From positions 124,001 through 188,000 of the forward strand of contig BGZK01000748.1 in the NCBI GenBank assembly GCA_005406025.1: a DNA stretch of 64,000 nucleotides, in the 5' to 3' direction. A program made the translations under genes and the position numbers. The notes beneath the pieces are model-generated. The model saw only the letters and a list, made by a program, of their open reading frames with translations, had not been told where the DNA came from and did not search any database. Every line of letters begins with the position of its first letter. Within the stretch, counting starts at the first letter, position 1. Origin of the DNA: Eumeta japonica (taxonomy: Eukaryota > Arthropoda > Insecta > Lepidoptera > Psychidae). Of this stretch, positions 1,435-24,829 are shown piece by piece.

Positions 1435-1569
1435 CTGTTCGCTGGTGACAGGATGGGAGTTCAGTTTGTGCAGCACGGCCACCGTGTCCCGGTCTTGGCG
1501 CAGGTCGGCCTTGCAGCCGCACAGCAAGACGGGCGCCGCTCCTCCGTGGGTGCGGACCTCGCGGTACCA
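1435..1569 (-). CDS. Rnd-like Rho-family GTPase, exon with the G4 loop and insert helix
   Basis: This 135-nt, phase-0 exon encodes 45 residues from WYREVRTH to HPVTSEQ. It is bounded by a good acceptor (TTTGTTCCACAG) and a donor (CAG|GTGTGT). WYREV matches the conserved Rho 'W.PEV' helix. VLLCGCKADLR is the G4 nucleotide-specificity segment, where typical Rho proteins have NKxD or TKxD; a cysteine in the first position is a feature of vertebrate Rnd proteins. The 22 residues from RQDRDTV to VTSEQ match the length and pattern of the Rho insert region. The following exon, which should carry the ECSA-type G5 motif and the C-terminal tail, is not visible and probably lies left of the window. The Rho-family call is secure. 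The subfamily is inferred from a few residues. Confidence 0.9.
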
Positions 1570-4500
1570 CTGTGGAACAAATGCATACATATTCTCAACC
1601 TGTGTACACACTGTTTTTAAGACAATATGTTTATGTTATTTAATTATTATGCGTGTAAATAATACGTTATGTATAGAGTATACAATAATTTGATATCTCG
1701 GATCGTATCGCTCAAGAGACCACAGTCCCTGTCGCTAGTGCTGAAATATGAACCATTTCTACTTTTAGAATGAGTCAAAAAGGCGAACGTCGACAAAATG
1801 GCAATTCAGCAGAAGAATGCGTTTAGAATCGCTTCCGCTCTACTGAGAAACGAAAAGGAAACGAATATAAAAAGTGAGATGTTATGGGAGCCCTTAAGTA
1901 AGGGCTCGTTGAGTTTTAACATTTTCGAACTGAACTGGCCACGATCCTCCGGTCCAGTAGACTAGAAGATCTCACCGAACGGGCACGACCACGCCCTCTC
2001 ACGGGAGAGACTGAAACCGCTCACCGATCGAATTGTCCTTTGTAGAACGTCGTAGTACAAGTCGTAAAATAGAGCCGACCATTTCGTTAGCCTTAATCAG
2101 ACGGATTAAAGCAAACAAGTCAGTTCGCCCGGCATATAGAGTTTAAATTGTAAGAGAGATACGCTATCGGACGACACAACCGGACAATGGGAATTAAATT
2201 CGAACACAGATAGATGGTTCAAAATAAAGATTCATTCTCTTGTAATTGAAGCCTTTTTTGTGTAACGAATATGTAACTATTTTATGTATAACATCGAAAA
2301 CTGCATAAGCAAGATTTGTAATGATTTCGTTAAATAATATCTGATATTTTATTGCGTTTCTGAATCAACTAAATAAGCTTAATTCGTCACCACGGTTAAC
2401 CCTTGAAGTGCCTCCCGTTCAAAGTTATAGTGCAATTACTTTGGAGTACTTATGGGTACTAAGCGTCATAAGTACTTATATAAGTATATTTTTTTAGTGA
2501 CGATTATCCCCATTCTAGGTATGTACTGCGCAGAATAAGAATTATCGTCACAAGCAAGTTTCGTATTTGTTATAATTTTATAGAAAGAAATAGAAGTTGT
2601 TGTCAAGAGATTAATAACTGTTGTTACTTAAAGCAAAATTTAAAATACCAATTGTTTGGAAACACGAAAAAGAAAAGAAAAAGAATTATACAATAAATTA
2701 AAGTTACTTATGATAGCTAAATATTTGTTAGGATTATGTTTTTTTTACAAAATAACTTTTTATTAGTATTGTTACGTTGTATCGCAATCGGTTTACGAGG
2801 ATTGAATTAAAAACAATAAACACTAAAATAAATAAAAAGTGTATATCCTACTTTATTCTGACACGAAAAAGCACTACAAAACGACTTCAACATTTTAAAC
2901 TTTATCGCAGTTCACTTCCTAACGTATTCTATAAAAGAAAACTGACTCGAACGTTCGACTTCCGGCATATAATATTATTCGTGAGGAATTGATTCTAAAA
3001 AAGTGCTTAAAAAATTATAATATTAATTGTTATTCATAATTAATAAGTCATCAGTAATTAATAACAAGGACATAAGCATTTCATCACCGTACACAAGACA
3101 ATAAATAGCAATTTCGACAATAATCCTACGAATATAAATCGATAGTTTTATAAAAACACATTGTAATTTCCCGTGTACACAATGAAGTCATATTCTGTAA
3201 TTTATTGGCCGTAGGTTTATTCTGATATTTCTGTAGTTTGCAACAGCATCTTAATATCCCGGTGTGTTGTGCGTTGAGTACATTTCAAAGATATCTCAGA
3301 TAGCGAGTAGAAAATTTTAAAACGAATATTAATAAATAAAACTTGTTGAAAATAACGCGGGACAATTAATCTATGATTACACAAATCGGAAGTTTTAAAA
3401 ATAAAATACCTAATGGAACAAGTTTTATAAACAATAAGCTGTCGAATAAATCTCGAATATAAGTATTGACCCCCGTAATTATAAAATGGTGGAATTTTGA
3501 AATAGTTGAAATAAGTTATGCGAAAGCTCTCTAATTTCCTTCTGCGACTTAAGGGACCGTTACATCAAAAGGGTAGATGGTTACAAGTTAAATCCCAATT
3601 AAATTCCGGATTTAAGGCCTTACAGACCGGGGTCGTGTTACCGACCCTTAACATATTTAAGCCGACCTCCAATAATCTGTACAAATCGTGCGCATTTCTT
3701 TATCATTTACAGCCATATGTGTTTAAATCGATTGCAATGAATAGAAATAATAAGGGTAACTTGAAACCGTTAAAAGACGTACTTATTTAGAATTAATGAA
3801 ATTTCGAGTTTTTCATTGCAATAGTTTCATTACAAAAAATACAGTTTCGAATAACCTTTTTTAAGAAAACAACAGAAAACACGTTAGTGTTCTTATGGAA
3901 GGTTATTCAATATTAAACATTTATTACTTAAATCTTATCCGATGGTAAGTAATATAATATAAATTTTGTAACATACCAATATAATATCAATATTGAAAAT
4001 GCCTAAATTACTTTTAGGAACACAACTTGTATAGGAGAATAGAAAACGATAGATTACTCATACATATACGTCTACAGTATTGTTATGGTTTCAAAGTACG
4101 TTATAGTCATAAACAGGCGGCAATTAATGTTTATGAAAAAAGCTACACATATCTTTGACGATAAAAACTAGCAAAGAAATAACGAAAGAAAAGCCTAAGT
4201 CGGCAAATAGCATAAATAAGAAAGCGTACACGGCACGAGAAAAACAAATGAATATGACATAAATATAGAATTCGCTCATGTATATTTTCCACAGGGGAAG
4301 GTAGAGACCACAGCTATCTTACTGTCGTAAGTGTCGCTATATTCAAATACCCATTTTGGTTCATTTGACAAGAATAATCTTTAATACGCGATAATGCTAC
4401 ATGCAAACGACACGTCCACGAGAACGAAGCCTTGTAAAAGACTGAGTGTTCAGAACAGTGTTGGTAACCCAAAGAAACTAAAAAACAGCAGCACATAAAT

Positions 4501-5139
4501 AAAAAAAAAAAACAGAAGAAAACAGTAGATAAAGTAAAAAAAGGCAGGTTTTATACTTTCCTCATATAATAAAAACAATTACCTACTAGGCAAATGTTTT
4601 AATTATATAAGAAAAGTATGAAATCTAGTTACTAGAACTAACAATTAGTTACTAGGACTGATATACATTGTTACATTATAATACTGATTACAACATAATA
4701 AAAAACGAAAATCAAAATAAAAATATTTTCCACTATCATCCTCAACTGCCTCATTTTCAGTATTTTCAGACTCATTTTCTTTTTTACAATTATACATATC
4801 TTTGTTAAATTTCTTCATATACCTTTCTGCGGTTTCAAATGAGTAGCATAATCCGTTATTTCGTATTCAGTGTGTAGTACTCCTTTAATAGCTTTCTACG
4901 TTGTGCCTTACATTTCACAACTATAAATACATTGAAGTGCTTATCAAAAAATATTCGCATAGTATAATAGGTGGCGCTGAACGCTAATTGAAAAACAGTA
5001 AAAATTAGGAATGAAACAAAAAACAGGGCCATCATAGTGAAAACAGCAAATCTACTGTTAAACCAGTAGGGTTGGTAACACTGGTTCAGAAGTTGTGATA
5101 TTAAACGGAAGAAATGTAGCGGACGAACGTGCGACTTAC
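1570..5139 (-). other. Intron of the Rnd-like gene (about 3.6 kb)
   Basis: This phase-0 intron lies between the switch II exon and the G4 exon. It is AT-rich, with no recognisable coding sequence, RNA gene or complete mobile element. A plus-strand open frame at 3518-3790 (90 codons) has intron-like base composition, matches nothing I know and is left out. Confidence 0.7.
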
Positions 5140-5249
5140 CTTAGCGGCCGCGTTATGGAGAGACTCGGGGTCGGCCACGTTGAAGCACAGCATGAACACC
5201 CTCGCGTCCTGGTACGCCAGCGGCCTGACCGTGTCATAGGCGGTGGTGC
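5140..5249 (-). CDS. Rnd-like Rho-family GTPase, exon with switch II
   Basis: This 110-nt exon begins with GC, completing the glycine codon split by the upstream intron (phase 1). It then reads 36 codons, TTAYDTVRPLAYQDARVFML then CFNVADPESLHNAAAK, before the donor AAG|GTAAGT. The acceptor is TCGCTCCGCAG. TAYDTVRPLAY aligns with the Rho switch II 'EDYDRLRPLSY', and VFMLCFNVADPESL with 'VILMCFSIDSPDSL'. At the position of the catalytic glutamine (Gln63 of RhoA) this protein has threonine, so intrinsic GTP hydrolysis is predicted to be lost, as in Rnd proteins, which have serine there. The junction to the next exon (AAK|WYRE) is phase 0. Confidence 0.9.
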
Positions 5250-6419
5250 CTGCGGAGCGAAGGGACAGGAAATCAGTTCTAGTGTTCGTTGTCCAAGTTG
5301 TAGCGTGACGAAATCAAATCTACGGTAAAGTAATCCGTTTTATACACGTGCTTGAGGTGTATTGTGTGTTGCGATATTCGGGTATGTAACCACACCAATT
5401 TAATAGATTTTTTAAAATTTCTTTTTTATATGTAATAATATATAGAAGAAATATAAAAGAGTTAAGCGAATGCCTCATTTGTTAGTAAAGTAAAATTAAT
5501 TTTTCTTTATTATTAAATTTGATTTAAATCAAAATGAAAAGTAAATTAAATCAAACTCTATTAGATAGAACTATTAAATCCTACGTAATATAATACAAAA
5601 CTAAAACTATCGTATATAGTGGGACTTCCAACAGCTGAAATTATATTGAAGTGTTACCTATTTGCAGTAAAAATATATTTGCAAAATTTGAATCACCTTT
5701 TTAAATTAACACACAGTGGTAATATTTAAACATGTACTTAATATACCAGATAAGATACTTCAAGTTGGACAATTTATTCCTTCGTATAATAAATATAAAT
5801 AACAGGCGAAGACCAGTAATAAAAACAAGAATTCATCTTACGTTAAATTTTTGAAATCTTTTTTAATACATAAAATATATCTAATGAAATAGAAATTCTA
5901 TTTAGGAATTGTCCGATACAGCAATAATTCAGAATAAATGTTATGAGTTATTAAATTCCAAATAATATTTTAATTATATTTCCTTGTAATAACGATTCCT
6001 TGAAAAAAATTATTCAACGATGTCAATTCTTTATTATCCTTCAAAATGAGTTATCCTCTATTTTTTATCTGGAAATTGATGCTGAGAACAATTAAAACTC
6101 GATTAGCAAAAAAATATCCTTGGCCTTCTAACGAAGAACTTTTAGATAGCCAAAAGGAATGTTAATATAACAGGTGATAATAAAAAAACACAACAACCAT
6201 ATCCCAGAGCTCAAATGAGGAAAAACTGGTATAAAAAAATGTTCATTCAAAATAATATTATGAATTAATCGATATGATTTTATCATATTACAAAGTAATA
6301 TGTACGTGTTACAATATTAAATACTATGAAAAAATATTATGCGTACATTATTTTTTTATTATTGGTCATGTGTTTATTAGTGAAAACTAATATAAAAACC
6401 TAATAAAGAAATAAAACAT

Positions 6420-6427
6420 AAAAAAAA
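6420..6427 (-). terminator. RNA polymerase III terminator of tRNA-Phe
   Basis: On the minus strand a T run begins five bases after the tRNA 3' end (GTTC then TTTTTTT). This is the usual pol III stop for an insect tRNA gene. Confidence 0.8.
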
Positions 6428-6431
6428 GAAC

Positions 6432-6504
6432 TGCCGAAACCCGGGATTGAACCGGGGACCTTTAGATCTTCAGTCTAACGCTCTCCCAACTGAGCTATTT
6501 CGGC
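6432..6504 (-). tRNA. tRNA-Phe (anticodon GAA)
   Basis: Read on the minus strand, the 73 bases fold into a complete cloverleaf. The acceptor GCCGAAA pairs with TTTCGGC, with discriminator A. The D arm is GCTC/GAGC, the anticodon stem TTAGA/TCTAA encloses the loop CTGAAGA with GAA at 6471-6469, the variable loop is AGGTC, and the T arm CCCGG/CCGGG encloses TTCAATC. There is no intron. Internal boxes A (TAGCTCAGTTGG) and B (GGTTCAATCCC) are intact. A run of at least seven T residues follows the 3' end on the minus strand, as expected for RNA polymerase III termination. It lies inside the large intron of the Rnd-like gene, on the same strand. Confidence 0.97.
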
Positions 6505-7199
6505 CGATGTGTTTCTTCGCGAAATTATCGTTTTTATTCTACGTCATAGCTTTGCGTACATATTTGATAAACTATGGTCTTATCAGTATGACCGATGATT
6601 GCCGAAATATCAATGTGCTGTTAAGATGAGAAAAAAATAAAAAACAGTCTTAAAAAAAAAGGCCGAGAGCATGTCGAACCATGCTCAATGTAGGATTCCT
6701 GTGCCATCACTACAAAGAAATGCACTGTATAATGAAAAAAAAAAAAACTATAGTTATACTTTTTTCCATGATTCCCCCACATAATTAATATAAGCTCTTT
6801 AGTCACTTATAACTAGAGAAACAAGTAGGTATGTGGATTATTAGTCTTAAAATAGTGTAAATTAAAAAGCACCAGCAAAAGAGTGTATCTACACGGCACT
6901 TACGTTCTTTTGTTAAGAAGCGCAGTTTTTCTGCAAAAGCAGTGTATCCAATCACGTTAAAATATTTTTTATTTAAAGTATTTATTAAGTTTATCTTTGT
7001 GTTTTTTTTTTATATTTTGTGGACTTCGGTTTCGAAAATAAAGGTGGGGGACACAATCTATGCTACTTTCGGAGCAATTATTTCTGAAAATATTTACTTA
7101 ATCAAAAAAAAATACTTAGAAATCTTAAAGGGTCTTTAAAATAATTGTCGAAGTATGTGCCCCAAGTTGATGTTTGCTGAATACATTTTTTTCAGCTTT

Positions 7200-7417
7200 T
7201 ATTATTATATTTTAATGAGTGCCCCCTTAGAAATATTTGTTTTTGTTATTTAACTACTAAACTGATTAAGAGGTTATAGGAGACACTTATTCTCTAAATT
7301 TCATCAATACATATCTTGTAGTTTTTGAGTAAAATACGTCTGACAAACGGACGAACAGACGGACATGACGAAATTATAAGGATTCCGTTTTTGCCATTTT
7401 GGCTCAGAACCCTAACA
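7200..7417 (+). repeat. LINE-type 3' tail repeat
   Basis: The end of this stretch, 'cggacagacatgacg'-like sequence followed by 'attccgtttttgccatttt' and 'aaccctaa', is a phrase I recognise as the 3' end of a very common lepidopteran interspersed repeat, probably derived from a non-LTR retrotransposon. No coding part remains. A related tail ends at 55709. The start is set loosely. Confidence 0.6.
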
Positions 7418-9381
7418 ATGAACTCCACTGGTGATGTATTGCGGAACTAAGTACAATAGAACTTTCTTAACAGTTTGCTTTATTGGATGCGTTGAGAAGA
7501 ATGGATAAGTGTTACTGGTGCAATTTAGACTCTCAAGCTAGTGTTCAAAGTAGAAGAAACAATACATACTTAATGTTGTATAAAAGTCTGACTTTAAAGT
7601 TATGTAAGTTATCCACATGAATTGAAATGTGACGTAACAAACAGTAGGCAATAGGACATCAGACAACAATATTTAGTGAAACTCCATTATGTATATGCTG
7701 CAATTTAAATCCGTTTCGATTTCCAGCCGCATATTTATCACAGAACAGTAAACAATTTCAGCTCCATTTCAGCTTCAATAAATTGTTACACATAGTCCAT
7801 TCGATTTTACGAAAGCGCATAATTTACGAATGTCGCCGAAATTTCGTAGGTTAAATAATTAGCGTAAAACTAGAATAAATATTGAATATTACCTAGTCTC
7901 AAGATATTGGTACTCTATTAAAATACTGCTCATTCAAAAAATTCTTCATGGAGAAACTTTCCTTTGTACTGAATCGCTCCATGTTAAAATGGCATCATCG
8001 GCATTTGACAGATTGAGTAATTAATGTCATTTTGTTGTAAAATGTATCTCGTTTAAAATTTTCCACATTATAAGGTCATTATTTCTTCGAGCAACTACGC
8101 GACAAAGATTTATGTGTACTATTTATTAAGACGAACATATATATACCTATATATTTATGTAAACTCATTCCATACATTTATAAAAATATATATGCTGTTT
8201 TATAACAACATTTTCATCTACCTACCGCAAAAAATGAATATTATAACGAAAAGATGAAGTTATCAATGGAAATTCTAAACAACACATGATTTCTTAATTT
8301 TACGTTTAATATAAATAACAGAAGTTTGATTTTTTTGATCTCTTAATAAAGAAATTGTTAAATAAATGCATTTATGTATTATTTGTGAACTTAAAATATT
8401 TACATATATCCAATATAATGTCGAACAAAATATTAAGATTTTTAGAAGACTTGATAGTAATTCCCATTCACGAACCAAAATTAAAATACAAATGATGCAT
8501 TACATAATTTTTTTTAAAGCATTTTTTTTGTACATTCACCAAAAGTATATTTGCGTTAAACCCCCTCGCCAAGAAGTACCTTCCAATTTTTTTTAAGCTA
8601 TTGGGAGGTTTGGACCACATTGCGAGTCTTTCAAGTTGACCTAATGCGAGTTTAAGGCTGATCGTATTAGTTCAGGATCAATTAAACACCTCACGCAAGT
8701 TTAATGAAGATAATATTAAATTATCTATTAATAATAGATCGAGTTTATTATAAACATATATATGCATATATCAGACTCAAGGCTATTTACAGAGGATTGG
8801 CTCGAATAAATTTGATTCTCAAATATTTAACTCGTATACGCGCAAAATGTTATTCAACATTCTCAACGATTTCGTAAGTGCTGCCTCGGCAGGAGAAACA
8901 TGGGAATTCTAAGAACTCGAGTTTCGCGCAGGAAAAACAAAGAGCCTGACTGCAAAACACAGCAGTAAATAAAAACCATGCGCGGGAACCCGAAAAGACA
9001 TTGCCATAAATCACGAGCAAACACTGAAGTATTCGGAAAGTATCCGGGTGTAAGTCTGATCCGCGACGCGCCGCCGGAGGGTCTTAACTTAGCAAATGGT
9101 GGAAATTTAGTATTCGAAAACAAATAGCCCCCGTTCGGAGTTGCACTCCACGCTGATAGAATAAAGATGCACATTGTAAAGGAGATTCTGCACGAACTTA
9201 TTCCATGCAGCTATCGAAATGATAGTTAAATCCACATTACGACATAGTTGAATTCCTTTTTACGAATTACAAACGATGGGTTGCTTTAAAGACAATTTTC
9301 TAGATACCAAATTAATAATAACCGATCGCACTATAAATTTCTGGAACTGACCACTTACGTAAACAATATTTAATAATAAAG

Positions 9382-10133
9382 TGTGTCAGCTCCAACGCAC
9401 GACTGGAGTTTACTCCTTTAAAATGATATCGTACATATAGATTAGTATTAACGGTAAATGAAAGCATCTATTATATTATTCAAAGCATAATACACAATTC
9501 ATTTATCTATGTTAATAGTAAAACAATTAATTCGTCATTTAAGAAAATATTGAAAATAATTATGTTATACAATAAAATTTTTAGTAAGATTGATTTTCTC
9601 TATCATTGACGTTATCTTGCGTATTGTTTATCACAGGAACAATAGCGGTATCATTAAACACTGAAACAATTGGTTTATGGTAACTAAAATATGATACATG
9701 CATGTCGGAAGATACATGTGTGATAAATCGTGAAATCGCATCAATAGTTGTACCATATCTAGTTGTCCCTAGTGTTTTGTCAGAAATTAAATCTAAGTTC
9801 AGTTCATCTTTCAGAAATTGTACTAAACGGAAACCATCTTCTTTATTAAAATCAATATTAAAATCTCCACCAAGTACAAGTGGAAGTTCATGGTGACGTT
9901 TCTTCAATAGTTTTGAACCCCCTTCTGTATACACTAACAATGATTCGTGGAGAAAATCTATTATATTTGTCACATTCTGATTGATTGAAATGTAAACAGT
10001 AACCATGACGATTTATTTATTTCAGTAACCATGACGATAGCGTAACGTCATTTATCTAACACTTGATTTTACTCCCATAAAATTCCATACCCCGGGCCTA
10101 AATATGAAATCGATTCTTAAGGAGTAAACTCCA
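9382..10133 (-). mobile_element. Helentron-like rolling-circle element relic, nested in mariner
   Basis: Both boundaries follow from comparing the two mariner copies. Each end carries the small palindrome GGAGTTTACTCC (left 9405-9416 and right, inverted, 10120-10131). Read on the minus strand, the 5' end is T-rich followed by this palindrome and AAGAATCGATTTC. The 3' end has the palindrome followed by an imperfect GTGTG/CGCAC hairpin. The 5' start resembles the start of the insert at 41357-41936. These hairpin-bearing ends, T-rich flanks and the endonuclease ORF inside fit Helentrons (Helitron2). No Rep or helicase sequence remains, so this is an internally deleted copy. Confidence 0.6.
9581..10006 (-). 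pseudogene. EEP-type endonuclease domain fragment of a Helentron-like element
   Basis: An open frame of 141 codons starts at ATG 10006, near the 5' end of the nested element on the minus strand. It reads as the C-terminal endonuclease/exonuclease/phosphatase domain found in some rolling-circle transposons and in non-LTR retrotransposons. Family motifs are visible in order: LGGDFNIDF (the GDFN metal-binding motif), GTTIDAI (the [ST]xID motif) and YFSYHKPIV, where SDHxP has become SYHKP with the histidine kept. The N-terminal third of the domain and all Rep/helicase parts are missing, so the fragment is probably inactive, although it has no stop or frameshift. It could also be read as a stand-alone captured domain. 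Confidence 0.75.
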
Positions 10134-11919
10134 AAAAGTAATTACTATATTTGAAAATGGAACTCTTTGGCTGTTAGGGTACAGATTTTTTGTGTCAATT
10201 GTTTTTTTATATTGTAGCATCATTTTAAAATTGGTGCCTATATCATTATGGATTTAAATCGTGAAAATTTTCGTAGTAGTAAATTTTGAGTGTAATTTGA
10301 CAGCACGGTAGAGCTTTGCTCGGCTTCGAACTGTTTTTGGAGATAAAACACCATGTAAGTCGACTATTTATAACTGATTTTCAGAATTCAAGTGCAGTAG
10401 TGTCAATTTCAGTGACGAATATCGTGATGGTCGCCCGTCCACCACTGTGAACGACAAAACATCGATATTATACGCCGTATGATCGAAACAGACAGGCATG
10501 AGACCCACCATGGAATTCGTGCATCCTTAGGCATAGGCATAAGTTAAATAAAATCATTCCTACACACAAACATTTGGGTATAAAAAAACTGTGCTCTCGG
10601 TGGATCCTCCACACAATTTGACAGAGACTCAAAAAACGGACCGCATCACTTGGTGCAATGCCACGCTTACTAGAATCAAGGAAGGGGCGTCAAATTTGGC
10701 GTGGGGCGTATTAATAGTGACAAAACGACGATTTATTGCTATGATCCCAAGATAAAGCAATAATCGACCGTATGGGTCTATCGAGATGAGGCGAAACCAA
10801 TCAAAGTGGCGCGCGAGTGAAGTGTCTCTAAGCGGATGATTGCTTCTTTTTTTAATAAAACTGGACACGTGGCCACTGTTGGTTCGATAATCGTTGTAAT
10901 GTAAATAGTGATTGCTTCACGACCATTTATTTGCCGAAAGTTGTTGAAAAACTCCGTAAAAATAACCGTAAACGTCGTATCATCTTGTACCACGACAACA
11001 CCAGTTCTAACACGACCAAACAGACAAATATATTTAAAGAAGGAAAACGTAGAACTTATGAGCGATCCTGCATGCGGTCCCGATGTGGCACCTTGAAAAT
11101 TTTTTTGTTCACAAAAATTAAGAACTAATTATGCAGTCAACGATTTTCATCACCAGAAGCGGTTGTCGAATAGTATGTAAGACATGTTTTCGAGGTCACC
11201 AGGGAGGAGTGGCATAAATGTTTTTAAAATTGGTTAATTCGTATGCAGAAGCGCATTTATGCTATCGGAGAATATTTTGACAAACAATAAAATCATTTTT
11301 GACCATTCATTGTAATTTTTTACGTATATGTTCACGACCGTGTCATAACTACTGCGGGTAGCGAGCATATTCGCGTTCGATGGCATGTTAATTGCCACAA
11401 ACAAATCTGGATATGATTTGAAAAAAAATTCATCGTACGAAAGCCTCTCTACGCGAACTCAAGTCGCACTTCTCCGGTTTTTTTCATTACGTGAACGAAA
11501 AGTCCATCTACACACCTAAAACTATAAAGCTGGTCGTGACTGTATATTGAATATACAGCCAAAAGTTAGCAGGAAGTAGCACGAAGAAGATGTACGAAAT
11601 GATACAATACAAAGTGATCTTTTTTACTATTCAATTCTACGTCGTAAAATTCACTAACGGAACTGTCAGGATAGATGTACTCATAAATGATGTATCAATC
11701 TGAATAAAATTATAGTATGAATTATATTTAAAAAAAATTACATTCGAAAAAATCGTACAAGCTGAAAAAAATCTTATCTTCGTTGTTTTTATACAACTAT
11801 TTAATCTTTTCTAATAATAAAGTTTGACATGTACAATAATTAATTCAGGTTAAATGTCTTAGTTACGGCAGTAATGTATGTTATGATTTCCATTGCTGTG
11901 ACAAATGTTATATTTAAAT

Positions 11920-11988
11920 ACATACATACATACACACACGCACGCACACACACAAAGGCACACGCACACACACACACACACACACACT
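11920..11988. repeat. CA-rich microsatellite
   Basis: Imperfect (CA)n with CG and CATA interruptions. It begins as a short CATA run and continues as CACACA tracts. The minus-strand open frame over it (valine/cysteine-rich) is an artefact of the repeat. Confidence 0.9.
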
Positions 11989-12439
11989 TATGTATATACT
12001 TAATGTATTATATATATAAATACGCGCATGATATGTATATGTAAGTATGTAGTAGCTGGTCAGACAAAAACTCTTTGATTTTTCTTGTGGGTCACGTACC
12101 CATGTAGTTATTGCCCGCAACTCCACCGGAATAGACAAAATTAATTCTGTCATTTTTTGTATCGATCGATGTCAATCAAATCCCGTCCCTACTCGTTTTC
12201 GAGCCCAATCCCGTACTCAATTTCGCTTTCTGTCCTGTTTTCAATTCCGTATGCTCTACCAGCCATAGTACCGATTTGGACGAAAAAGGGAACAAATGCT
12301 AATACAGAAATTAAATATTAGGTATATTAGTCGCGGATAGTGTAGTTTTCTATAAATTAAAGAATTATTAAAATCATCTTGGGAATATAAATTCATGATT
12401 AACGCCGGGGATAAACTTAGGCAGCCTAATTTACTCGAG

Positions 12440-12620
12440 AATTGATTAGCTATCTATTAGTGAAAGAATATAATCGGTTTAATACAAATACGGATGAAAC
12501 AGGGGATAAACATTATTTTTTTTTAGAAACCTTCCCGGGTGTGCGTACAACAAAGTTTCATCGTAATCGGACTAATGGCTCGCATAGAAGACATACATTC
12601 ATTTTTATATATTTTAAGTT
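12440..12620 (+). repeat. Decayed LINE-type 3' region
   Basis: The phrase running from 'aaaccttcccgggtg' to 'aagtttcatcgtaatcgg' is a stock phrase of lepidopteran non-LTR retrotransposon 3' ends, with no coding sequence left. A similar phrase, 'ggtccagccgttctcga', follows near 13015-13040 and may belong to a second fragment. Confidence 0.4.
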
Positions 12621-14663
12621 CTACATCTTTTGTATCGATTGATATCAATCTTAATTTCGATATCATTTGACTCCGAACAAAAAAGAATTACGTATATCCA
12701 TCGTTTAAATCGGAGGTTATATTGAGTTGAGTTCATACAAAAAACCCTTAGAAAAAGTAGAGTCTTCAAATCTTCGAATTTTCAAATTTATCGGATGTTT
12801 TTTTAAATTTTTCTTTTAAAAACTTTTCACGGATTACAAAGAATATTTGAAATAAAAATTAGCGGTACCAATGTAGTCATACGCGAATTTTACGCTTAAC
12901 AGTACATTAGCGATTCATTTTTATTTATATTATTTCCGGGCAATTTTTCGAATTTTTCTCTTCATAAGAACCTTCCTCAGAATTCTAAAACTATTTGATA
13001 CAAAAAAATGGTCGGAATGGTCCAGCCGTTCTCGAATTTCGCGATTAGCAAAATATTTAGTGATTAATTTTTATTTAATGATATAAACTCACGCCTAACT
13101 TCAAAATATTTTTACTATTATTAAGTTTGAAATGAAAACGATCAAAGACTAAGATGCTGGTAAGAAGAGGTCCGAATAATAAGACGGACAATAAACACTG
13201 CTAATCAAAACAAAGAAACAAACGGGTTTGATAAAGCCTGCAAATTGAATATCTGGGCAGTTGCTTGATAGCATAGTTGAGATGAAGAAGGACAATAAAG
13301 GAAAGATATAAATAATACTTAATGCTGAAGGTCTGATTTTGACTACAATACACTGTAAAATAGCCAAATTAATGTATCAAATGGTGATATCTCTCACCAC
13401 GCAACGCGACCTTCATTAAATAACTAGTTAAATAAAGCAAGACTGAAACAGAACGAAAGAGAAATTTGGAAAGATATGTTGCAAGCTACAAAAACATAAA
13501 TACTGAAAATGTAATAAAATCCTTGAAAGAAATTCTATTAACTAGATCTATACGGTTAAAAGAATACACTATTATAGTCATTTTTAAAGAAGGATCGACA
13601 CCATTTATTTAACTCCTTTTTCAAGTTTACTGCAAAACAAATATAGGTTGATGCCCCGTTTATGGATGGCAGGTTGATGCTTGATGGTTTATGCGTGGGA
13701 GGACTCATTTACAAAAAAAAACATGATCTAATACAAGATAGATTACAAGGAGTAGATTATATTTGTACAGAACATCAATTACGTCATATTTTAGAAACTT
13801 TCAACGAAAACGCTGTATAAAGAGAAGATGCCGAAGAAAAAAATAATTTAGGAAAGATCTGTTATCTGGTCTGACTTCAGTTGTTCGCTGAAAGTTGCAC
13901 GAATACCGAGTGGTGATGCGCTGTCACCACTTCTAATCTAGACTACACTCATCGCATACATTCACGCTCGATTCGGTGTATCGAGACTTGTTCCTTTCAG
14001 TCGGTGCGACTAGTTGGTGATAATGATGATGATTTTTGACTATTTATAATTCACTCTTTTATTAGAAAGATTATAATTACATTCATACGAATCGAGCTTT
14101 CGTAGATCAACTAGCTAAATTCAGCTCAGAGCCGTGAGCCGCCATTTCTCGCTCGCAGCAATTAAACTTCAACGGCAAAACCGACGTGGGTGGTGCTTTT
14201 GACGTAACTGTAATTATTCTAATAGATTCCCGCATCGTATCATATGAAATTCATTTATTAACTACGAAATAATAATTGCTTTGAAGTAGGTTTAGGGGAA
14301 ATTTTATTCATGCTTGTTCCAATTTGTATGTCAAATCAAGAATTAAATGTAATGGGTTATTGATGTAAATATTACATTTATGGTATAGTGTAGGTGTGTG
14401 TTTGTGTATTTCAGCCGATAGTGTCTCGTATGTGAAGGTAGTGGGAATTTTTCTTTTCGCCGGAGGAAAGATTATAGACATAAATAACTCGGTCACCCAG
14501 ATGCGCCCATTACGCCGGTCACGCACGATTTTGTTGACGTGTGTTGGAAGCAGAATTTCGCAACGTTTAGAGCATAATATAATTTTAGATCCATTGTTAA
14601 TGTTTAGCTAGGTTTTGCTACAAGCACAATCCTAGGTTCTGAATAGGCACTAAACTGCGATGT

Positions 14664-14777
14664 ATGAAAGGAGCCATCGAGGCTATAACAACAATCGTTT
14701 TCATTGTGGTCGCGTCCTGCGGCCATTGTGAAGGCGTTATTACGGTCGAATGTATGTCCGGTGTTAAGAAAATATAG
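14664..14777 (+). CDS. Candidate small secreted peptide ORF (37 codons)
   Basis: From ATG at 14664 the frame reads MKGAIEAITTIVFIVVASCG, then HCEGVITVECMSGVKKI, then TAG. A short charged start, a hydrophobic core (ITTIVFIVVA) and a small-residue region before HCEG look like a signal peptide, leaving a mature part of about 17 residues with two cysteines. I recognise no family. Start context is ordinary, and no promoter or poly(A) signal clearly belongs to it. A short ORF like this can arise by chance. Confidence 0.2.
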   Translation: MKGAIEAITTIVFIVVASCGHCEGVITVECMSGVKKI

Positions 14778-17700
14778 GAATCAAATTGTAATCGCAGTGG
14801 TTTTTTGATGTACGGTCTTGTGTAACACGTCTAAATGAACATCGGTGTTCACTAAGAAACTGGAATTTTCGTTATAAATTGGTGATTTGAAAACAGCTTC
14901 TGAACGAGACGTCGTAGTGTTATTCTGATGGTTCCATAATTCGTTTCGATTAAAATCATTTTTTTGCATTAATAACTCGATTTAGTCGATGGATCATAAG
15001 AAAAAAATAAATTTAAAAACATTTGTCAATGTCGTTCATTCCATCATTAAATTGATGTTATTTGTGTCACATTGAAGATCAATTTTTAAAATACAAAAAT
15101 TTGTGGGTATTTTTTTTTGGTTGGAAAAACGTGAAAAGAGGCATTATGAAAACCGATTTTCCCTTAAAAAGATTCGATAACCAGTGAATCTTTTTTATCT
15201 AATATTTTATTATGGGATCTTCCTAAGGAGCGGGTAAGATACGAAGTTTTGTTCAGAGAAATGATTTGTGCAATGTGGTATCTCAGTTATAATCAGTGGC
15301 ACGTGTCTGTGGTGGTTTTAGGAACCTTTTTTCACCCTTGCAAGAATAGATGACTGATGATTTGATACGCAGACGCCGATTAGAAAGTGCACAGCATTCT
15401 ATTTCTGAGGAGCCTTAGCTCGTAACATTTTGCCAAAGCTCATCTGATTGCACTGCGTACTGCCGATGTTCCATCACATCAGATGAAAGTCCAAACAAAA
15501 TATAGGTTGGAAGTGAACCCAATTCAATGTTCGAAATCAGGTACCTTAATTTTTTTGTACAACGGTGATCATCTTTATCAGCTTTCCATATAAAGAAGCT
15601 ATGTCAAATTTATCTGAAATTCTAATCATTAAATTTGATTATTGATCAATCCGTTGTCAAGTTTAGATAGATAGATAGTTTTTATTCATATATCTTTTCA
15701 AGGCACTTGTTGAGTGGCGCCATTAGATTATAATTGTCAATTTAAGTATTTTAGGCCTAAGGTGAAACTCAATATGTCAGAGTTCATATGAAAATAATCA
15801 CACACCCTGAACCTCATGTCTCTTGAATGCAATTAAATATTGTGTAGGTATTGTATTTGTACGCCTTTGTTTTCATTTTGTGTTTTCTAATTCGCTTTTA
15901 AAAAGTACAACGTTACACTTATTTTAATACAAGTTTTTGTCCACTTGTGCAGATGTTTTTACATATTTCATTTTCTCTCTATAGCTGACACAAGTCTAAA
16001 ACTCGACTATAATTCGTATTAATAGAACGTCTGCTATGTATTTAAGCAAACACCATTAAAGGCGTGGGAAGGAGTAGCTATTTGCAACATTGTGCAATAC
16101 ATTACTAGAATAACCGTTCACACCATTAAGTCCAAACTAGCATTATAAGGCATTCCAGAGATTATTTACACTTGCGCAAAGTCATGGCTTACTATTTGTA
16201 TATATAATAGAAATGTAAAAAACTCGTTTCTGTGCATTAAAAATATTTATCGAAACCTGAAAGGAGTAATATAAGGGAGTGTAACGGAGTACAAGACTGT
16301 TTTTGAAAACTGTCTGTTTCCTTGTCTGTTTGAATACACTTATCTCCGAAACCACACGGTGAATTTTCATGGTATTTTGCCAGGTACTTGAGCACAAGGG
16401 TGGATCCAGCTATCTAACCGGTGGAGGGTTCCACATACGAGGTTCAAACAGGACTACTCCAATCCGAGTACAATCATAAGACGAAGACTCATCCCTGGGC
16501 GTGAATGGAGTCATGACCACTGTGACATCCTCTGCATGGCTTAGGCTAACATGTAGATTTTATTTTATCAAAATCGGCTCAGGGAGAATTAGTTGAATAT
16601 CAAAAAGCGCACACAAATTTTTTGATGTTTATCTTCATGACACGGCGGATTAGTACACACATAAAACAATAGATGGTGTTATTAAATTTTTTCATAAGCT
16701 TACTTCACGTCAGCGGCATAAGTATTTTTACAATAGCGACAGTATTGTCAGAATTTTTTGAAGTTATGACATTACGTATTCATATTTCGATTCAAATGTC
16801 GTTATATTGTAATAATTATGCTAAAGCCCCGAACACATATTTGATATTCATTAAAGTCTGACATTTTTTAATCATATTTACTTTTTTTTTTCATTGCAAT
16901 TACAGATCTTCTATTGTCGTTGATATTCCAATAAAAAAACACAAAAAATATTATCAGACTGAAACTAAAACCTTAGAAATGCCAGATAAAAAACTTAATT
17001 TAAACATATGTCCTCGGACGTGTTACCCATCCGCTTTTTTGAACTTAAATTAAAATTTAACAATGACCGTTTCCTTCTGTAATTAAGAAACACCTTTTAT
17101 GTGCATCAATCTCGGTTTCAATAATGATTCCTCTGTTGGGTTCGATTTTGATTTCTTCTCGTTTCACGACTCGTTCAACATCGGCGTTGGAAAGGGAATC
17201 CAAATCGAGAACTACCCTAGACAATGCTGTTAGTGATAACCAATTACTGCTTCTGTCGAGATTGTTCCTTTTATGTCAAAGTATCTATCTATCATTTATC
17301 CCATTTAGAGGCATGATCTATCTCTATTATAATCCGTCCGATCGTTTGAGTGCGATTGAAGGATAAAAATACAAATAAATTAACATTTATAATATAAAAT
17401 TAGACATTTCCCGACCGCTTTTGCTGTGTGTTATTAACCTGACATTAAAATTTATCTAATAGTTTTTATCTCCGATTCCGGTTCTGCGCTTCATTCCATC
17501 CCGGTCCCGATGTCGGTCTTGATCCTCCCTCGGAGATTCGTCACAATATTTCTGTTACATATTCCTTTTTTTCGTTTCTCTGTATACAAAGTGCTCTATT
17601 CGTGTCGCTGGAGATAATCTACTTTTGTACTTCATTAGACTATGTATAAAAAATTAGACATTAAAACTTGCAATTGTACTCGTATTGCCGGTGAAGTCGG

Positions 17701-19879
17701 GGCACACCTACGGTTTCTTGTCAGCGGCCCGCGACAAATTGCGACCGTTGCTATTTCTACAAACGCCAACGCTTTAGTGTTACAAACGTTCGTCTACAAT
17801 ATTAAAACTTCGAATCTCTAGACCACGTGATATATCGTTACCTAACGTCAATCTCCTACACTTACATTATCTCCTATGAGCGAAGTTACATATCTAGGCC
17901 TGCGGATCGAGTGGCCTTGACCTTTAACCTTCTGCGTTGGTCCAATGAGAGTTTCAGGATGTCAGCCAAGGATGTCATTGAAATGATTAGCTTGACACAA
18001 TTAAAAAAAAATCCTCAATTCGCCCGAGCTCGGGTGTCGATCCTGTTACGGCCGGCTGCGAAAGCGACACCATTCTCACATTAAACGAAACATATCATTG
18101 ATTTTAAGTTATTTATGTGGCGATCGTGACCCAACTTTATAGTCAAATTCGATTTGGAATCGGACCACCGCCGGCCGCATGCATGACGCGGTGGGCTCGC
18201 TACGACAATAATTCATGTACGCTCAGCCGAATATATATTATTTCTGTGCGATATCGATGGCAACGTTGCGGTTACACAAAATGAAATGGTTTAGACGAGT
18301 GACGATTAAATTTCTTCAATGATCCCTTCCGTAAATATAGGTTATGAATAAAAGGTAAATAAGATTGTAAAGAATAATGGATAAGTTTATACTTACGTCA
18401 GCAATATAACACTGACGAATTTCTTTGTTTTTAAGAAATGAAAATTTAAGACAACGCCTAATGAGTACAATTGCGACTTCACAAAGAGGGAACGTTGCGA
18501 GACCCATATATTTTATTAGCAATCATATTTTGAATGAGATCTGTGGAATTTTAAGTTACGTACAGTACGCGCCAAACATAAATGTAAACATAAACATAAT
18601 TGAAGTTAGCGACGAAGTTTCATACGGGCAGACAATAAGGCGAACGACACTTTCCTCCTACTCCAGAAACACTATGGCCGTGCACGTAGACGCGCGACGT
18701 TCAAAGACATCTTTACATTGAACATTGAAAGCACCAGAGACAATTTTCTTACTTCTTTCATTTCCGATAATTAAATAGACTAAAAAAATTTTAGACAAAG
18801 CTAAATAAGTACGAGTCGATCTCGAAATCGATTTTGAGTTGTGCAGCTTTATATTAGTTGTTAAATGTACAAATAAAGATGGCATGACTTTCGCTATATA
18901 GCCACGGTAGGTAAATACTTACACGCTTTATAATAACTATAAATGTACATTTATTTCCCAGAGGCGTACAAGCAAAAACCACAGAACTGTCTAGAATCAC
19001 ACCACATACATACATTTATACATTCATCTCTATTGTTTTACTGAAATCGACGATTGTTTCTTAAAAGTTTGATTTTTAGTTCTTCAAATTTTGTCCTAAC
19101 TTTACACACCACCGGTCTGTTCTGCTTATTTTGCTTTTGTTCTGATTTTCTAGGGCGTTCCTTACAGACTATTCTATCGCACACGTTCGCTATATAGATG
19201 TCTTCCGGTTCACTCATCATCTCGAGAAGGTCAAACCACCTAAATATACCCTTTAGTCACCACACCTTCTTTCAAGCCCAATTAATTTTTTAGAAGAGAT
19301 TCAATATATACACAACATCAAGGTATGACGAAATAGACTTTGTATGCTGAAAATTTTATATTTTTCGCACATTGTTTAGTTGCAAAAAAAGCTTTTAATA
19401 CATGCACATTATGATTTTTTTATAATATGAATTTAATTACCGATACCATCCGTAGCGATGTTTGTATTTTTTTTTTTAGAAATAGTGGAAAAGATACATC
19501 GCCCGATCGATAATATGATATTCCGAAATTTATCAAAAAATAACCTTATAAAAAATTTAATCTAAAGTCTCAGCATCACATTGGAATATTTCGTTACATA
19601 TTTCTATTAAGTATGGTGCAATCGTTAGGTATATATTTGTCCATTTGACCCTTATTAGGGTCCTTTTGGTATGCAGATTCCTATTGTCGTATCAATACTG
19701 TATTCTGTTTTAAAAACGCACTTTTTGACATAGAAAAAATCAAGTTATCAAATTAAATTGAGTTTTCTAATTTAATCCTTCTTATCGTTGAAGCAATGCA
19801 TTGAGTTCGGTCAGTCGGGATTCCCTTTTATGTTCTCATGGAGACGGCTGCAGATCGCATAAGGTAATAAGAAACTTAC

Positions 19880-19936
19880 CTCAAAATATCGAAGCTCTCA
19901 GTATTCGCGGCGGGCTCTGGCAGTTCCCGGCGCGGA
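19880..19936 (-). other. Candidate untranslated or cassette exon
   Basis: On the minus strand a plausible acceptor (TTATCGTTCACACGCAG) and a strong donor (GAG|GTAAGT) bound 57 GC-rich bases. One frame is fully open (PRRELPEPAANTESFDIL). Its phase does not fit between the two Rnd-like exons that flank it, so it is not a coding cassette of that transcript as I read it. An NRF1-like motif GCGCATGCG lies about 60 bases upstream (19995-20003), so the segment could instead be part of a 5' untranslated exon from an internal promoter. Confidence 0.25.
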
Positions 19937-20905
19937 CTGCGTGTGAACGATAAAATGTTCAGCTTTTATTAACCTTAACGGCGCTTTATAGCCGGCGCAT
20001 GCGTGTACTGCTAAACCGGGCTTAGGGATCCGTAGACGCTGCGAAATCGGGGTCAGATTTTTAATATGCGCGGTGAAGTGTAGCTGTAGTAAAGGTCCGT
20101 ATCGAATGGATGTTCACGACAGTGACGGCGACGGAGCGGCCGCTGTGCGGTACGTCGCTTTCAAACTAAAACAACGTCAGATCGGATCCCTTCAAGGAAA
20201 CTGTCGCTCACAATCAAATGGGAAAATTCACCAATAAGTTTGTAACTTAAGTTAAACTAAGCCGCAACTTCGTAGCTCGCTGCACGCTAACCCGTTGTTT
20301 CCGGACGTCATAATCTAATTGGCGACAACGGTGGTTAGAAAAAGAAATAAAGACATTTCAAATAACGGAAAGTGTGTTATATTTTCAATCGCAGGTTGTA
20401 TCGATGCTTAAAATACGCGATAGAGCCAGTCGATTTCAGATGTGATGTACCGAGAGGTAGAGATAGTGCGCCGCACGCGACGACCGCACGAAACAATGTG
20501 TATGCAAAAATGTACGACCGTGTGTCTGACATAATAACGCTGTATCAATTAAAATAAACCCGTTCCCAATTGAAACTCCAAACGAAAGCCTTTGGGTCTA
20601 CGTAAATGATAATTTATTAATATGCGGGAAATATTTTAGATTGTTCCTTTTTAAAACCATATTTTTTTTAATCGTGAAAAAGTCCGAAGACACTAGGATG
20701 TGTTTTTCGAATTCAAATAGTTAACTGTACCCATAAGTCAATTCTATATAAGTATTTATATAAAATTGATTTTTTGAGGTATCTGCCGTTGCCTTTAAAA
20801 GTTTTCAACGCAATATGAGCTTTCGCGTAGGGCCTAGGTAAAGTACTTCTTCAAGTGAAATAAAAGGATCGTAGAAATTATTCTGAAGTGGGGCTACCAA
20901 AAACC

Positions 20906-20995
20906 ACAATAATATTTGCAATCTACTATGAAGGGGTAGATGTTATATAAACAATAATATTTGCAGTCTATTTTAAAGGAGTAATAAATATTATA
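20906..20995. repeat. Imperfect tandem duplication, two 45-bp units
   Basis: The unit beginning ACAATAATATTTGCA at 20906 is repeated at 20951, with matching 'gtcta', 'aagg' and 'gta' blocks. Unit two has several substitutions. No function is apparent. Confidence 0.7.
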
Positions 20996-22556
20996 CAAAA
21001 TTAATTTAGTTATACCTTAAATAAAAGGGCCAATAGATAACAGAATAAATACCGCATCGAACGAATGTATCAACACTTAAAGCGGGTTATACCGAGAACT
21101 GTAATTATTTTACTTCATAGATATTTTGTTCTACTTTTTCTTTTTTACATTAAAAAAATGTGGCGCCATTAAATTCTTCAAATTATGCACTTACGAAAAA
21201 TTTGGTGTAATCCGAATGGCATTAGCAACCCACTGTAATTCTTTTACAAAGTATACAATTCCTTTCTTTCTCTGTTACATTTGTTTACATTTAATTATAA
21301 ACTAATAAATATTCACGTGAAACGTTTAAGCCGCAGAAGTTGTCTAAGGATTAAATCTATATAAGTACGTACCTTCTTTTATATGAATATATACGTATTG
21401 AATTTTAAACAAAGACAAACAAGTTATATTTATAAACAATATTTACCAATACAATCCCACGTATCGAAGATAACGCCCGCAATTCGACAACAACGAATTT
21501 GCAGTTTAAATTGAAATAACCGACCGTACACGGTTAATGTGGCCATATGCAACCGACACACGTGCGAATTATTGACAAACGAACGACGTTACACGGCTCG
21601 ATAACGACATACATGACACCTCACATTATCCTAAAGCAGCACTTGTTTTACGTATCGCATATAAGTAATGTAGATAGATATAGATAGGTGATAGGTGGAT
21701 AGAAAGCAAGAGGAGGCAGGCATTAGTTCTTTTTGCAAGGGTTAAGCAAAGGGCGGTAGAATTTATAAGGATCTTTAAGCTTTTTCGTGCTCGTGTACAT
21801 TAAACTTTGCTCAGATCTATAGACCCCCATTGGCCATGTGAATTGTCGTTCGTTCAACCCGCTCGATAGCGCTAAATCGCTCTAAATTAACCCTGGCGCT
21901 GCCTAGCCTCGAGTTGTATTAAGTTGTCCATCGTCCTCGTTCACGTAATTCTCACGTTAATTGTTCTTATAAAACAGTAAAAGTTTACAAGTCGCAACTG
22001 AAACGTAGGCACGGTATGATCATGAAGTGGCGTTTGCGCCTGCGTGGTGTGCGCCGTGATTTTGTGGCAACCTCAGTAGGCCTTAAAAATAAACAGTGTT
22101 AACATTAAAGCGGAAATCAAATTATATCAAGGAGCAAATAAAGTTTGTTTGTTTTAATCCGCTAAATAATTAGTATTTCTACATACGTTCAGCACATCCT
22201 CGGGGAATATTAAAAAAAATACCTAATCATATTACTGAATTCGATCAAAACAATGAACAAATTATTTTTCTTTTTGGACAAGAATTAAAATTTTAAGTAA
22301 TACAACGGTTTCGTAAAAAAGGTTTTCCTGAGAATGTGCTGATTTAGCACGAAACTTATGTAGAAATAAAATGAGATGTAGATGTTAATGCTCTCGAATC
22401 AATATTCAGTTCTTTGGACGAAAATAAATTTCTGCGAATTAATACCTAACACAATAGTCGCTAGCTTTTTTTTTAATTCCTAATAATTTTTTGTATCAGG
22501 CTAAATTTTTTCAATCTTTGTTTTTGTTTAACTTGTAAAATCAAAAATGTGACTAG

Positions 22557-22631
22557 TCTTTCATGAAGGCTTTTCTATAATCTTTCATGAAGGCTTTCCA
22601 TGAGTCTAGAAACTGTTCATGAAAGATTATA
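22557..22631. repeat. Direct and inverted repeat cluster forming a 16-bp perfect hairpin
   Basis: TCTTTCATGAAGGCTTT occurs twice in direct orientation (22557-22573 and 22581-22597), and an inverted copy of its core follows. Arms 22576-22591 and 22616-22631 (TATAATCTTTCATGAA and its exact complement) form a 16-bp stem with a 24-base loop. It may be a decayed MITE or a structured RNA. I recognise no family. Confidence 0.75.
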
Positions 22632-23739
22632 CAATTAGTTATACATTGTATTTACTAAAAGCACAAAGACGTACTATACAATGATTTGATTAGTAGACGC
22701 TAACCACAAGTCTGGAAGGTCTCACATATTACACTATGCAATATAATCACTAACACGGTCATCTTAATAATTTGGGTGAAACGCAATCAAATATACATTA
22801 CCTATCTTATAAATTTAAACTATAATTTTTTAAGAACTTATAATGATTTCAAGATACATTGAAAAAAGACCCCACTCAATGAAGTTGGAAGAGATATATT
22901 ATTTTTAATTATGTAATTTTTACGTCACAGATTAATATTGAGTTTTGTTTGAATATCTCTTACGCTACAGAGAACAAAATCGATCCCTACAAAAATATTG
23001 ATAAATAGATATTAAACCTTTAAACTCATTACCGTTTCTTTTCTCCTTCGTAGTTGAATAATATAGTGATGGCCGGAGATCAAGAACATAGTCTTCTATA
23101 AGAAATATTCAAATCCTAACCGTGTACAAATCGACGAATGAGCTTCTGTGATCTGAGTAGAAAACAGAGCTTCCATATTGAACCATTAAGGAGCATTCAA
23201 AAAGAGCACAAATACATTTGGATTGAGTGGAGCAATCGAGGAGATCGAGGAGTCCGCGAGAAGAACGTGGATCAGGCAGTGGTGTTTATTAAGCGAACAG
23301 GTAGACGCCGGGCGACGACGAGCTTCATGCCGCCGGATCTGAAGATTTTGTTATTCGCGTGGATAAAAGTTTTACGAAACTTTCGCTGTTAGCCGCCAAT
23401 TTCCTTGAGAATCGACAGAAATTACACAATGGAGCTGTAAGTGCACATCCCTAAGAATTGACACGTATGCTGCCTTAGCCAGAGGTAAGCTATAAATATT
23501 CGCCGATAAAATCGTAGCAGGTGAATATGTCTAGTCTGTCACGATAAATTTCCTTTACTAGATATTCAAACTTAATATTAATGTCATATTACAATCAAAT
23601 AAAAAAAAGGACACAAAATGCGACTTCCTCTTGACGTAAAAATAAAATAAGCGGTCGATCGCGAGCTTCGATAATTCATAGAGAAAAAAACATTTGTACT
23701 GCGTTCGGATAACTTAATTCCAGCAAGAGCTTTTCCGCT

Positions 23740-23900
23740 GCGGAAACCGGCCTATTATTATTTGGACTTTTCACCCTTTCGCCTCGGTAATCGCTTTAAA
23801 GCGATTTCAACTCATTAAGGTTATATTTTTCAGCAAAACGAGTTTTGTTTTTAACGATGACTCGGCGCGCGCCCGGCCGGCTGAAAGAATTCAATTTAAT
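23740..23900. other. GC-rich island with an 18-bp palindrome, candidate regulatory DNA
   Basis: This stretch is GC-richer than its surroundings and mixes short AT tracts with CpG-rich blocks. It contains the perfect palindrome AATCGCTTTAAAGCGATT (23789-23806). No coding frame or repeat family is recognised. Intronic islands of this texture are often conserved noncoding elements, but conservation cannot be judged from one sequence. Confidence 0.3.
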
Positions 23901-24741
23901 GAAGCCGAAAGTTTATATTGGATTGCGTTCATGTTAAAATTCTGTTTATTGCACTGTTTGGTTTTTTTTATGACTAATAAATACTGTCGATTAAATGTTT
24001 TCCAAAAATTTATCGTAAATGGCGAACTTTATTACGCATAGTAACCTACGTATTAAAATCGACACACTCGAGTCTTTAATATATGCGTTGAATCAATTCT
24101 GACGTTGGCCTTCTCGCTTTAAATTCATGATTATGTAAATTTTTCAACCGCACTTATGGTCTGAATCCGACTTGTACAAGCGACGATCCGCGTCTAACAC
24201 AAAGCGTTTACGCACACTCATTGAAAATTGAAAGGAAGAACCCATTTGGAAATAGAAAAGGGAGAAGAAACAACGAGAAGTTTCTTCTTCTATAAGAGGA
24301 GTCTACTAGGTCGAAGTCCTCGCGCTGGTCGAAAACCGATTAGCAAGTCTAAATCGTTCTGGTTAATATTCTTTGGATTTCCTTCTCGTCCTTTATCTTT
24401 TCACGCGCAGTTGTAATTAATACTACTCAGGCATTTCTACTTTAGTCCTCACCATGTGAAGAATATATTTTTTTAAAGTATATGGTATGTAACTTTTAAT
24501 TCGCAAAGAATTTTTCTACATTAAATTACCGCAATTCAATATAGAAAAAACGCTTTCAGATCTTGATTGGCACTGGGCTGGGGTGGAAAGTTCCAGATCC
24601 AACTCCTCAATCTAAAATAAAGAATGTAGAAGGATTGGTTTCAATAGTGACGCGATTGAAACTCTGACACAACAACAAACAAGAACAACAAATCAAACAA
24701 CAACTTTCCAAGTTTCCCTCTACTTCAAAAACAGCACTCAC

Positions 24742-24829
24742 CGGAGGTGTCCCAGACTGAGTAGTTGACGGTGTGGTCGGCCACGGCGCACGTGTGTCCA
24801 TATTTTTCAAAACCGGTCGGGGCGTATGT
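24742..24829 (-). CDS. Rnd-like Rho-family GTPase, exon with the effector loop (switch I)
   Basis: This 88-nt exon encodes 29 residues plus the first base of a glycine codon, from TYAPTGFEKYGHTC to NYSVWDTS|G. The acceptor is TTTTGTTGCAG and the donor is CCG|GTGAGT. TYAPTGFEKY aligns with the Rho effector loop 'YVPTVFENY'; the magnesium- and GTP-sensing threonine is kept, while the two valines have become alanine and glycine, which could change effector choice. WDTSG replaces the usual DTAG and matches vertebrate Rnd. The split glycine codon joins exactly to the exon at 5249-5140. The preceding exon should carry the P-loop (GxxxxGK[ST]); I found no such motif on the minus strand between here and 64000. 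Confidence 0.9.

Follow-up and report, generated by a model that had tools for sequence, protein, structure and literature searches.

Does the moth Eumeta japonica (Lepidoptera, Psychidae) encode a Rho-family GTPase that belongs to the Rnd subfamily by descent, or a member of another Rho group that has come to resemble it? This question is raised by a locus in a window of 64,000 nucleotides (contig BGZK01000748.1, positions 124,001 to 188,000 of the forward strand; the window denotes this whole stretch of analyzed DNA). Based on the results obtained, the gene fragment found there very probably represents the middle part of the moth's orthologue within the animal Rnd subfamily, predicted from its sequence to be locked in the state bound to guanosine triphosphate (GTP), to be farnesylated and to act as a likely antagonist of Rho1. 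The assignment as an Rnd orthologue was deduced from the homologues detected, the ranking of full-length relatives against the PDB, phylogenetic trees, approximately unbiased (AU) tests, residue positions 59 and 61 and a C-terminal tail shared among relatives. Within the window, the gene fragment is composed of the following elements:

24742..24829, minus strand: exon of 88 nucleotides encoding switch I (YAPTGFEKY) through DTS-G, ending in phase 1; AG/GT borders, in frame, tblastn matches with nine of the nine relatives used
5250..24741, minus strand: intron of 19,492 nucleotides
5140..5249, minus strand: exon of 110 nucleotides encoding G-TTAYDTVRPLAY...NAAAK, including the threonine at the catalytic-glutamine position; AG/GT borders, in frame, tblastn matches with nine of nine relatives
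1570..5139, minus strand: intron of 3,570 nucleotides
1435..1569, minus strand: exon of 135 nucleotides encoding WYREV...CGCKADLRQD...PVTSEQ, with the G4 motif and the Rho insert region; AG/GT borders, in frame, tblastn matches with nine of nine relatives

The initial annotation had described three spliced minus-strand exons coding for 111 Rho-family residues, and its residues and outer coordinates proved to be exact: joined, the exons yield 333 stop-free nucleotides in compatible phases, encoding 111 amino acids. In the order 24829-24742, 5249-5140 and 1569-1435, the exons are preceded by the acceptors TTGCAG, TCCGCAG and TTCCACAG and followed by the donors GTGAGT, GTAAGT and GTGTGT. Their guanine plus cytosine (GC) content is 64%, reaching 83% at third codon positions, compared to 35% for the window. 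In the PDB alignment, the fragment spans approximately residues 31 to 141 of Rac1, and position 12 and the CAAX box are therefore not readable for E. japonica. Neither a P-loop exon (searched with a P-loop pattern and by tblastn with nine relatives) nor a C-terminal exon carrying the CAAX box (tblastn with nine relatives) was found in the window, as would be expected for a broken gene copy of which just these exons survived. This explanation is hardly credible, since the frame, the motifs and each of the six splice borders are preserved, the outermost two being an acceptor and a donor that call for further exons. The window comprises 39 kb upstream of the first exon, but just 1.4 kb after the last one. 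Moreover, complete orthologues exist in other moths, some of them on contigs of 1.2–2.1 kb, consistent with spliced transcripts. The complete frames of the relatives P0003, P0008 and P0011 lie on contigs of 1,234, 1,706 and 2,052 bases, which are best explained as spliced RNA because introns as long as those in the window would not fit.

Homology searches assigned the fragment to the Ras family of Pfam (expectation value, E, 5.5e-20) and to Rho-family chains of the PDB (E 2.3e-26), and its closest orthologue was detected in Ostrinia nubilalis (85% identity, E 2.1e-67). Given these matches, the fragment is not a chance reading; a Ras-type G domain and Rho-type switch regions place it in the Rho family. 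Searched against 5.8 billion proteins, the fragment returned 70 candidates, 54 of them with E values of 1e-20 or better. Other named moths and butterflies mostly showed 69–81% identity, and further matches originated from a caddisfly, locusts, a cockroach, planthoppers, a lacewing, a flea, flies (Bradysia, Hermetia, Condylostylus), a centipede, a horseshoe crab and a scorpion. Profile searches with a fly set and a mixed-arthropod set (best 120 of 310 and best 120 of 236 matches listed) extended the family to molluscs, hemichordates and the vertebrate proteins Rnd2 and Rnd3. Fragment and profile searches together list 171 distinct proteins, many of which carry database names such as RhoN-like or RhoE-like, others being named Rho1 or rhoA. 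The O. nubilalis protein P0001 contains the 18-residue stretch ETVAMLSKLRSHPVTSEE in three tandem copies, of which the window has one, and ends in a tail without a CAAX box; it probably represents a faulty gene model. Furthermore, a P-loop is missing from 11 PTGFE-containing gene models (P0006, P0010, P0020, P0021, P0023, P0043, P0050, P0077, P0109, P0131, P0140), their sequence stopping or becoming unrelated approximately at the point that corresponds to the first-exon border in the window. Either a distant first exon was missed by annotation in these cases, or an alternative first exon gives rise to a protein without G1.

In order to compare residues and to calculate trees, 43 of the 171 listed proteins, all species-named, were used, the other 128 being unnamed, partial, near copies, or named but unpicked. 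The resulting 52 rows comprise the window fragment, 26 other arthropod, eight mollusc, two hemichordate and nine vertebrate Rnd rows as well as six other Rho proteins (RhoA, rho1, RhoD, Rac1, Cdc42 and RhoU). Residue positions follow Rac numbering. Position 59, an alanine in 6/6 other Rhos, is serine in 45 and threonine in one of the 46 Rnd rows, and the catalytic glutamine at position 61, present in 6/6 other Rhos, occurs in none of them. Both features had been noted for the moth, as DTSG in place of DTAG and as threonine at the glutamine position, and both are present in the window. Likewise, glycine at position 12 is found in 6/6 other Rhos and in 0/45 Rnd rows covering this position, all 26 other arthropods being non-Gly. 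Among all 171 listed proteins, exceptions at the G3 motif are DTAG in P0140, P0165 and P0171, DTCG in P0141 and P0144, and DTTG in P0092 (one of the counted rows), P0153 and P0168. In vertebrate Rnds, substitutions at the positions of RHOA Gly14, Ala61 and Gln63 accompany the loss of GTP hydrolysis (PMC6696182; this and the other papers given by PMC number are cited for the accessible part of their text). Two of these three changes are seen in the moth fragment and all three in its relatives.

Locking in the GTP-bound state is thus a prediction from residues, and an Rnd by descent could instead have regained slow hydrolysis or have become a pseudo-GTPase that hardly binds nucleotide. A drifting pocket is suggested by position 61, where T, S, A, G, D, C and L occur over the 46 Rnd rows (threonine in 11, serine in 7, alanine in 7 and glycine in 2 of the 27 arthropods; aspartate in 7 and serine in 1 of the 8 molluscs; cysteine in both hemichordates; serine in 8 and leucine in 1 of the 9 vertebrates), and by the P-loop GPAKCGKT of several fly rows; in addition, the P-loop of E. 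japonica itself is unseen in the window. However, glutamine never reappears at position 61 in the 46 rows, and the residues for nucleotide binding are kept: K16 and T/S17 in 45/45 rows (26/26 arthropods covering the P-loop) as well as T35 and D118 in 46/46 (27/27 arthropods). This conservation fits retained binding of GTP and magnesium, and a protein that is not GTP-locked is considered unlikely. In the window itself, the exon structure, the loss of Ala59 and Gln61, the retention of Thr35 and Asp118 and the placement in the Rnd clade are directly observed; the non-Gly residue at position 12, the retained K16 and T/S17 and the C-terminal CxxM are seen in relatives only.

Another explanation of these residues is convergence: in an arthropod or protostome, a Rho, RhoD/F-like or Rac gene would have given rise to an offshoot that lost hydrolysis and grew Rnd-like. 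Several results favor it and weigh against descent from a common Rnd. The fragment alone matched Rac1 best in the PDB (95.2 bits), ahead of Rnd1 (87.2 bits), but score alone cannot tell its subfamily because the fragment covers no more than the central part of the G domain. Full-length relatives from Diatraea and Limulus found RhoE/Rnd3 as best PDB chain (160.5 and 189.8 bits, compared to 142.7 and 160.5 bits for the best RhoA), the rho1 chain 8etd ranking third for the Diatraea protein with 157.3 bits. The GCKxD signature at G4, also put forward as an Rnd feature, is present in the window (CGCKAD, Cys at position 115) and C115 occurs in 46/46 Rnd rows; it is a weak Rnd mark, since RhoD and rho1 8etd (2/6 other Rhos) have it too. 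RhoD shares GCKTD at G4 and the switch-I sequence YTPTVFERY, whose ERY recurs in arthropod rows, but unlike the Rnds it keeps Gly12, Ala59 and Gln61 and is separate in the tree. RhoF is grouped with RhoD in this comparison, and the tail of RhoD is not known to be of the CxxM type.

Insect Rho1, RhoL, Mtl, RhoU and Cdc42 are members of the Rho family, and a Rho-family tree with vertebrate Rnds and such insect proteins had been suggested as a check. The tree calculated here compares the Rnds with the six Rhos named above, a thin set in which insect Rho1, RhoL, Mtl and RhoU are absent. On 176 columns, the 46 Rnd rows, the moth fragment among them, formed one side of a branch with a support of 100/99. 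Arthropods (98/94), molluscs (100/99), hemichordates (100/99) and vertebrates (99/97) each remained in one piece, and arthropod and mollusc rows grouped together (100/98). Removal of 27 hallmark columns (P-loop residues 12-13, switch I, G3 and G4), leaving 149, did not change the Rnd branch or its support (100/99). AU tests were applied to trees in which the protostome rows were forced into other groups, these groupings having been picked post hoc with the tree already in view. Grouping with RhoA and rho1 obtained p 0.001 on 176 and 0.007 on 149 columns, and grouping with Rac1, Cdc42 and RhoU 0.0004 and 0.007. For RhoD, the values were 0.005 and, without the hallmark columns, a marginal 0.036. 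Membership in a RhoDF group, as suggested by GCKTD and FERY, was accordingly tried and set aside: RhoD has a long branch and falls outside the Rnd group, and the AU test rejects this placement on 176 columns, if only marginally on 149. Together with the AKSCxxM-like tail described below, the trees with and without hallmark columns and the AU tests make convergent loss of hydrolysis, which the initial annotation had offered as its alternative, very improbable. Structure prediction for the Diatraea orthologue gave an ordinary Rho fold (mean predicted local distance difference test score 84.5). Fold comparison as a subfamily test was non-discriminating, Foldseek ranking Rnd1 first and RhoD second, and VIA-align ranking RhoE first, tied with RhoB and RhoA.

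Outside the tree columns, an AKSCxxM-like tail is common to many moth, mollusc and vertebrate rows. A CxxM tail terminates 25/27 arthropod, 8/8 mollusc, 2/2 hemichordate and 7/9 vertebrate rows, the rows without it being the window fragment, the Ostrinia model and two PDB chains that are truncated. RAKSCCVM or RARSCCVM forms the C-terminus of the five other Lepidoptera rows, resembling tails from molluscs (e.g., AAKSCVVM) and vertebrates (e.g., RAKSCSIM). The cysteine is preceded by serine in 11 of the 15 insect rows with a CxxM tail and by asparagine in a flea and three flies. This serine is reminiscent of the 14-3-3 site that undergoes phosphorylation in vertebrate Rnds. For vertebrate Rnds, binding of 14-3-3 near the CAAX box has been described (PMC6696182, PMC4319381), and the methionine of the CAAX box directs farnesylation (PMC6696182). 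Moreover, they are regulated through expression, phosphorylation and partners (PMC6696182, PMC4319381).

For the moth Rnd, a corresponding mode of action may be proposed. The protein would bind GTP without hydrolyzing it, would be farnesylated and membrane-bound, and would be controlled by its synthesis, location and decay rather than by cycling between GTP and guanosine diphosphate. It may lower contractility driven by Rho1 and Rho-kinase via p190RhoGAP and/or plexins, a route available to vertebrate Rnds, with a choice of partners perhaps changed by its altered switch I.

Compared to the vertebrate proteins Rnd1, Rnd2 (RhoN) and Rnd3 (RhoE), the window gene agrees in Ser59, the missing Gln61, Cys115 and its clade, and its relatives agree in the non-Gly residue at position 12 and the CxxM tail. 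Differences were found at position 61 (threonine in the window, serine in 8/9 vertebrates), at Tyr63, which is present in 0/27 arthropods versus 8/9 vertebrates, and in switch I. The latter reads PTVFENY in 9/9 vertebrate and PTIFDN in 2/2 hemichordate rows, whereas most arthropod rows have PTGFE[KR]Y and the window PTGFEKY. Glycine replaces the vertebrate valine at position 36 in 24/27 arthropods (serine in a lacewing, a flea and an ostracod) and 8/8 molluscs, i.e., in 32/35 protostome rows; this change is a fresh point, absent from the departures listed initially. At position 39, asparagine in vertebrates, lysine or arginine occurs in 27/27 arthropods and threonine in 8/8 molluscs. Mollusc Rnds resemble the arthropod set in Gly36, in being its sister group in the tree and in their SCxxM tail (8/8; compare CgRnd, PyRnd and CfRnd in PMC4669188), and differ from it in Thr39 (8/8), Asp61 (7/8) and Cys12 (7/8). 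Among all 171 listed proteins, switch I with PTSF was encountered in the lacewing, the flea, the ostracod and some further rows. Tick rows P0069, P0079, P0094 and P0112 carry FDRY in switch I, and spider rows P0076, P0089, P0091 and P0104 carry PTDFER, alongside other spider rows with PTGFERY; the FDRY and PTDFER rows add to the lineage copies whose effector loop is altered.

The residue adjoining position 36 is a threonine that we take to be the equivalent of T55 in Rnd3. Exchange T55V in Rnd3 abolished binding of p190RhoGAP and PlexinB2 (PMC4319381), and the substitution at position 36 perhaps alters partner choice. With chances judged to be below even, protostome Rnds may constitute an ancient functional variant in its own right, GTP-locked like the vertebrate Rnds while having a remodelled effector loop (Gly at 36; Lys, Arg or Thr at 39) and other partners, its gene having been lost in the usual insect models and hence thought absent from arthropods. 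Arthropod Rnds provide a clear test case for a conserved switch-I change.

The initial annotation regarded Rnd as a chordate or vertebrate branch missing from Drosophila and the moth gene as a possible unrecognised arthropod Rnd-like lineage. The first view is shared by one review, in the accessible text of which Rnd is vertebrate-only, without representatives in flies and worms, and is presented as a vertebrate invention linked to brain development (PMC4319381, 2015). The accessible parts of two other papers also give none for Drosophila, but list Rnd from bivalve molluscs (PMC4669188, 2015) and from cnidarians and a mollusc, with an empty cell for Arthropoda and D. melanogaster as sole arthropod (PMC7600811, 2020). 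Regarding the second view, trees and AU tests bear out an Rnd lineage, but it is not strictly unrecognised, as many members are named RhoN- or RhoE-like in databases. A literature search of partial coverage, with few subscription journals and partly noisy results, found no paper on an arthropod Rnd. The subfamily itself is known; the moth gene adds a member in a group omitted by the accessible text of these three papers. Because vertebrate, hemichordate, mollusc and arthropod rows form one group, the sequences trace Rnd back to the last common ancestor of bilaterians, in agreement with the cnidarian claim of PMC7600811. Moths, locusts, cockroaches and horseshoe crabs can thus be used to ask for the pre-vertebrate role of a non-switching Rho.

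No Drosophila, mosquito, beetle or hymenopteran names occurred among the named arthropod matches listed, the profile searches being represented by their best 120 each and no dedicated search having been made. This hints at a possible loss of the Rnd gene in the usual model insects, though the flies Hermetia and Condylostylus keep it. Drosophila CG13375 was considered as a possible fly member and set aside, a literature search having given no relevant paper.

Apart from the Rnd locus, three other long open frames in the window were assigned to no Pfam family. An open frame of 143 amino acids (9584-10012, minus strand) without a Pfam match contains the stretch LVLGGDFNIDF and presumably resembles part of a transposable-element endonuclease.

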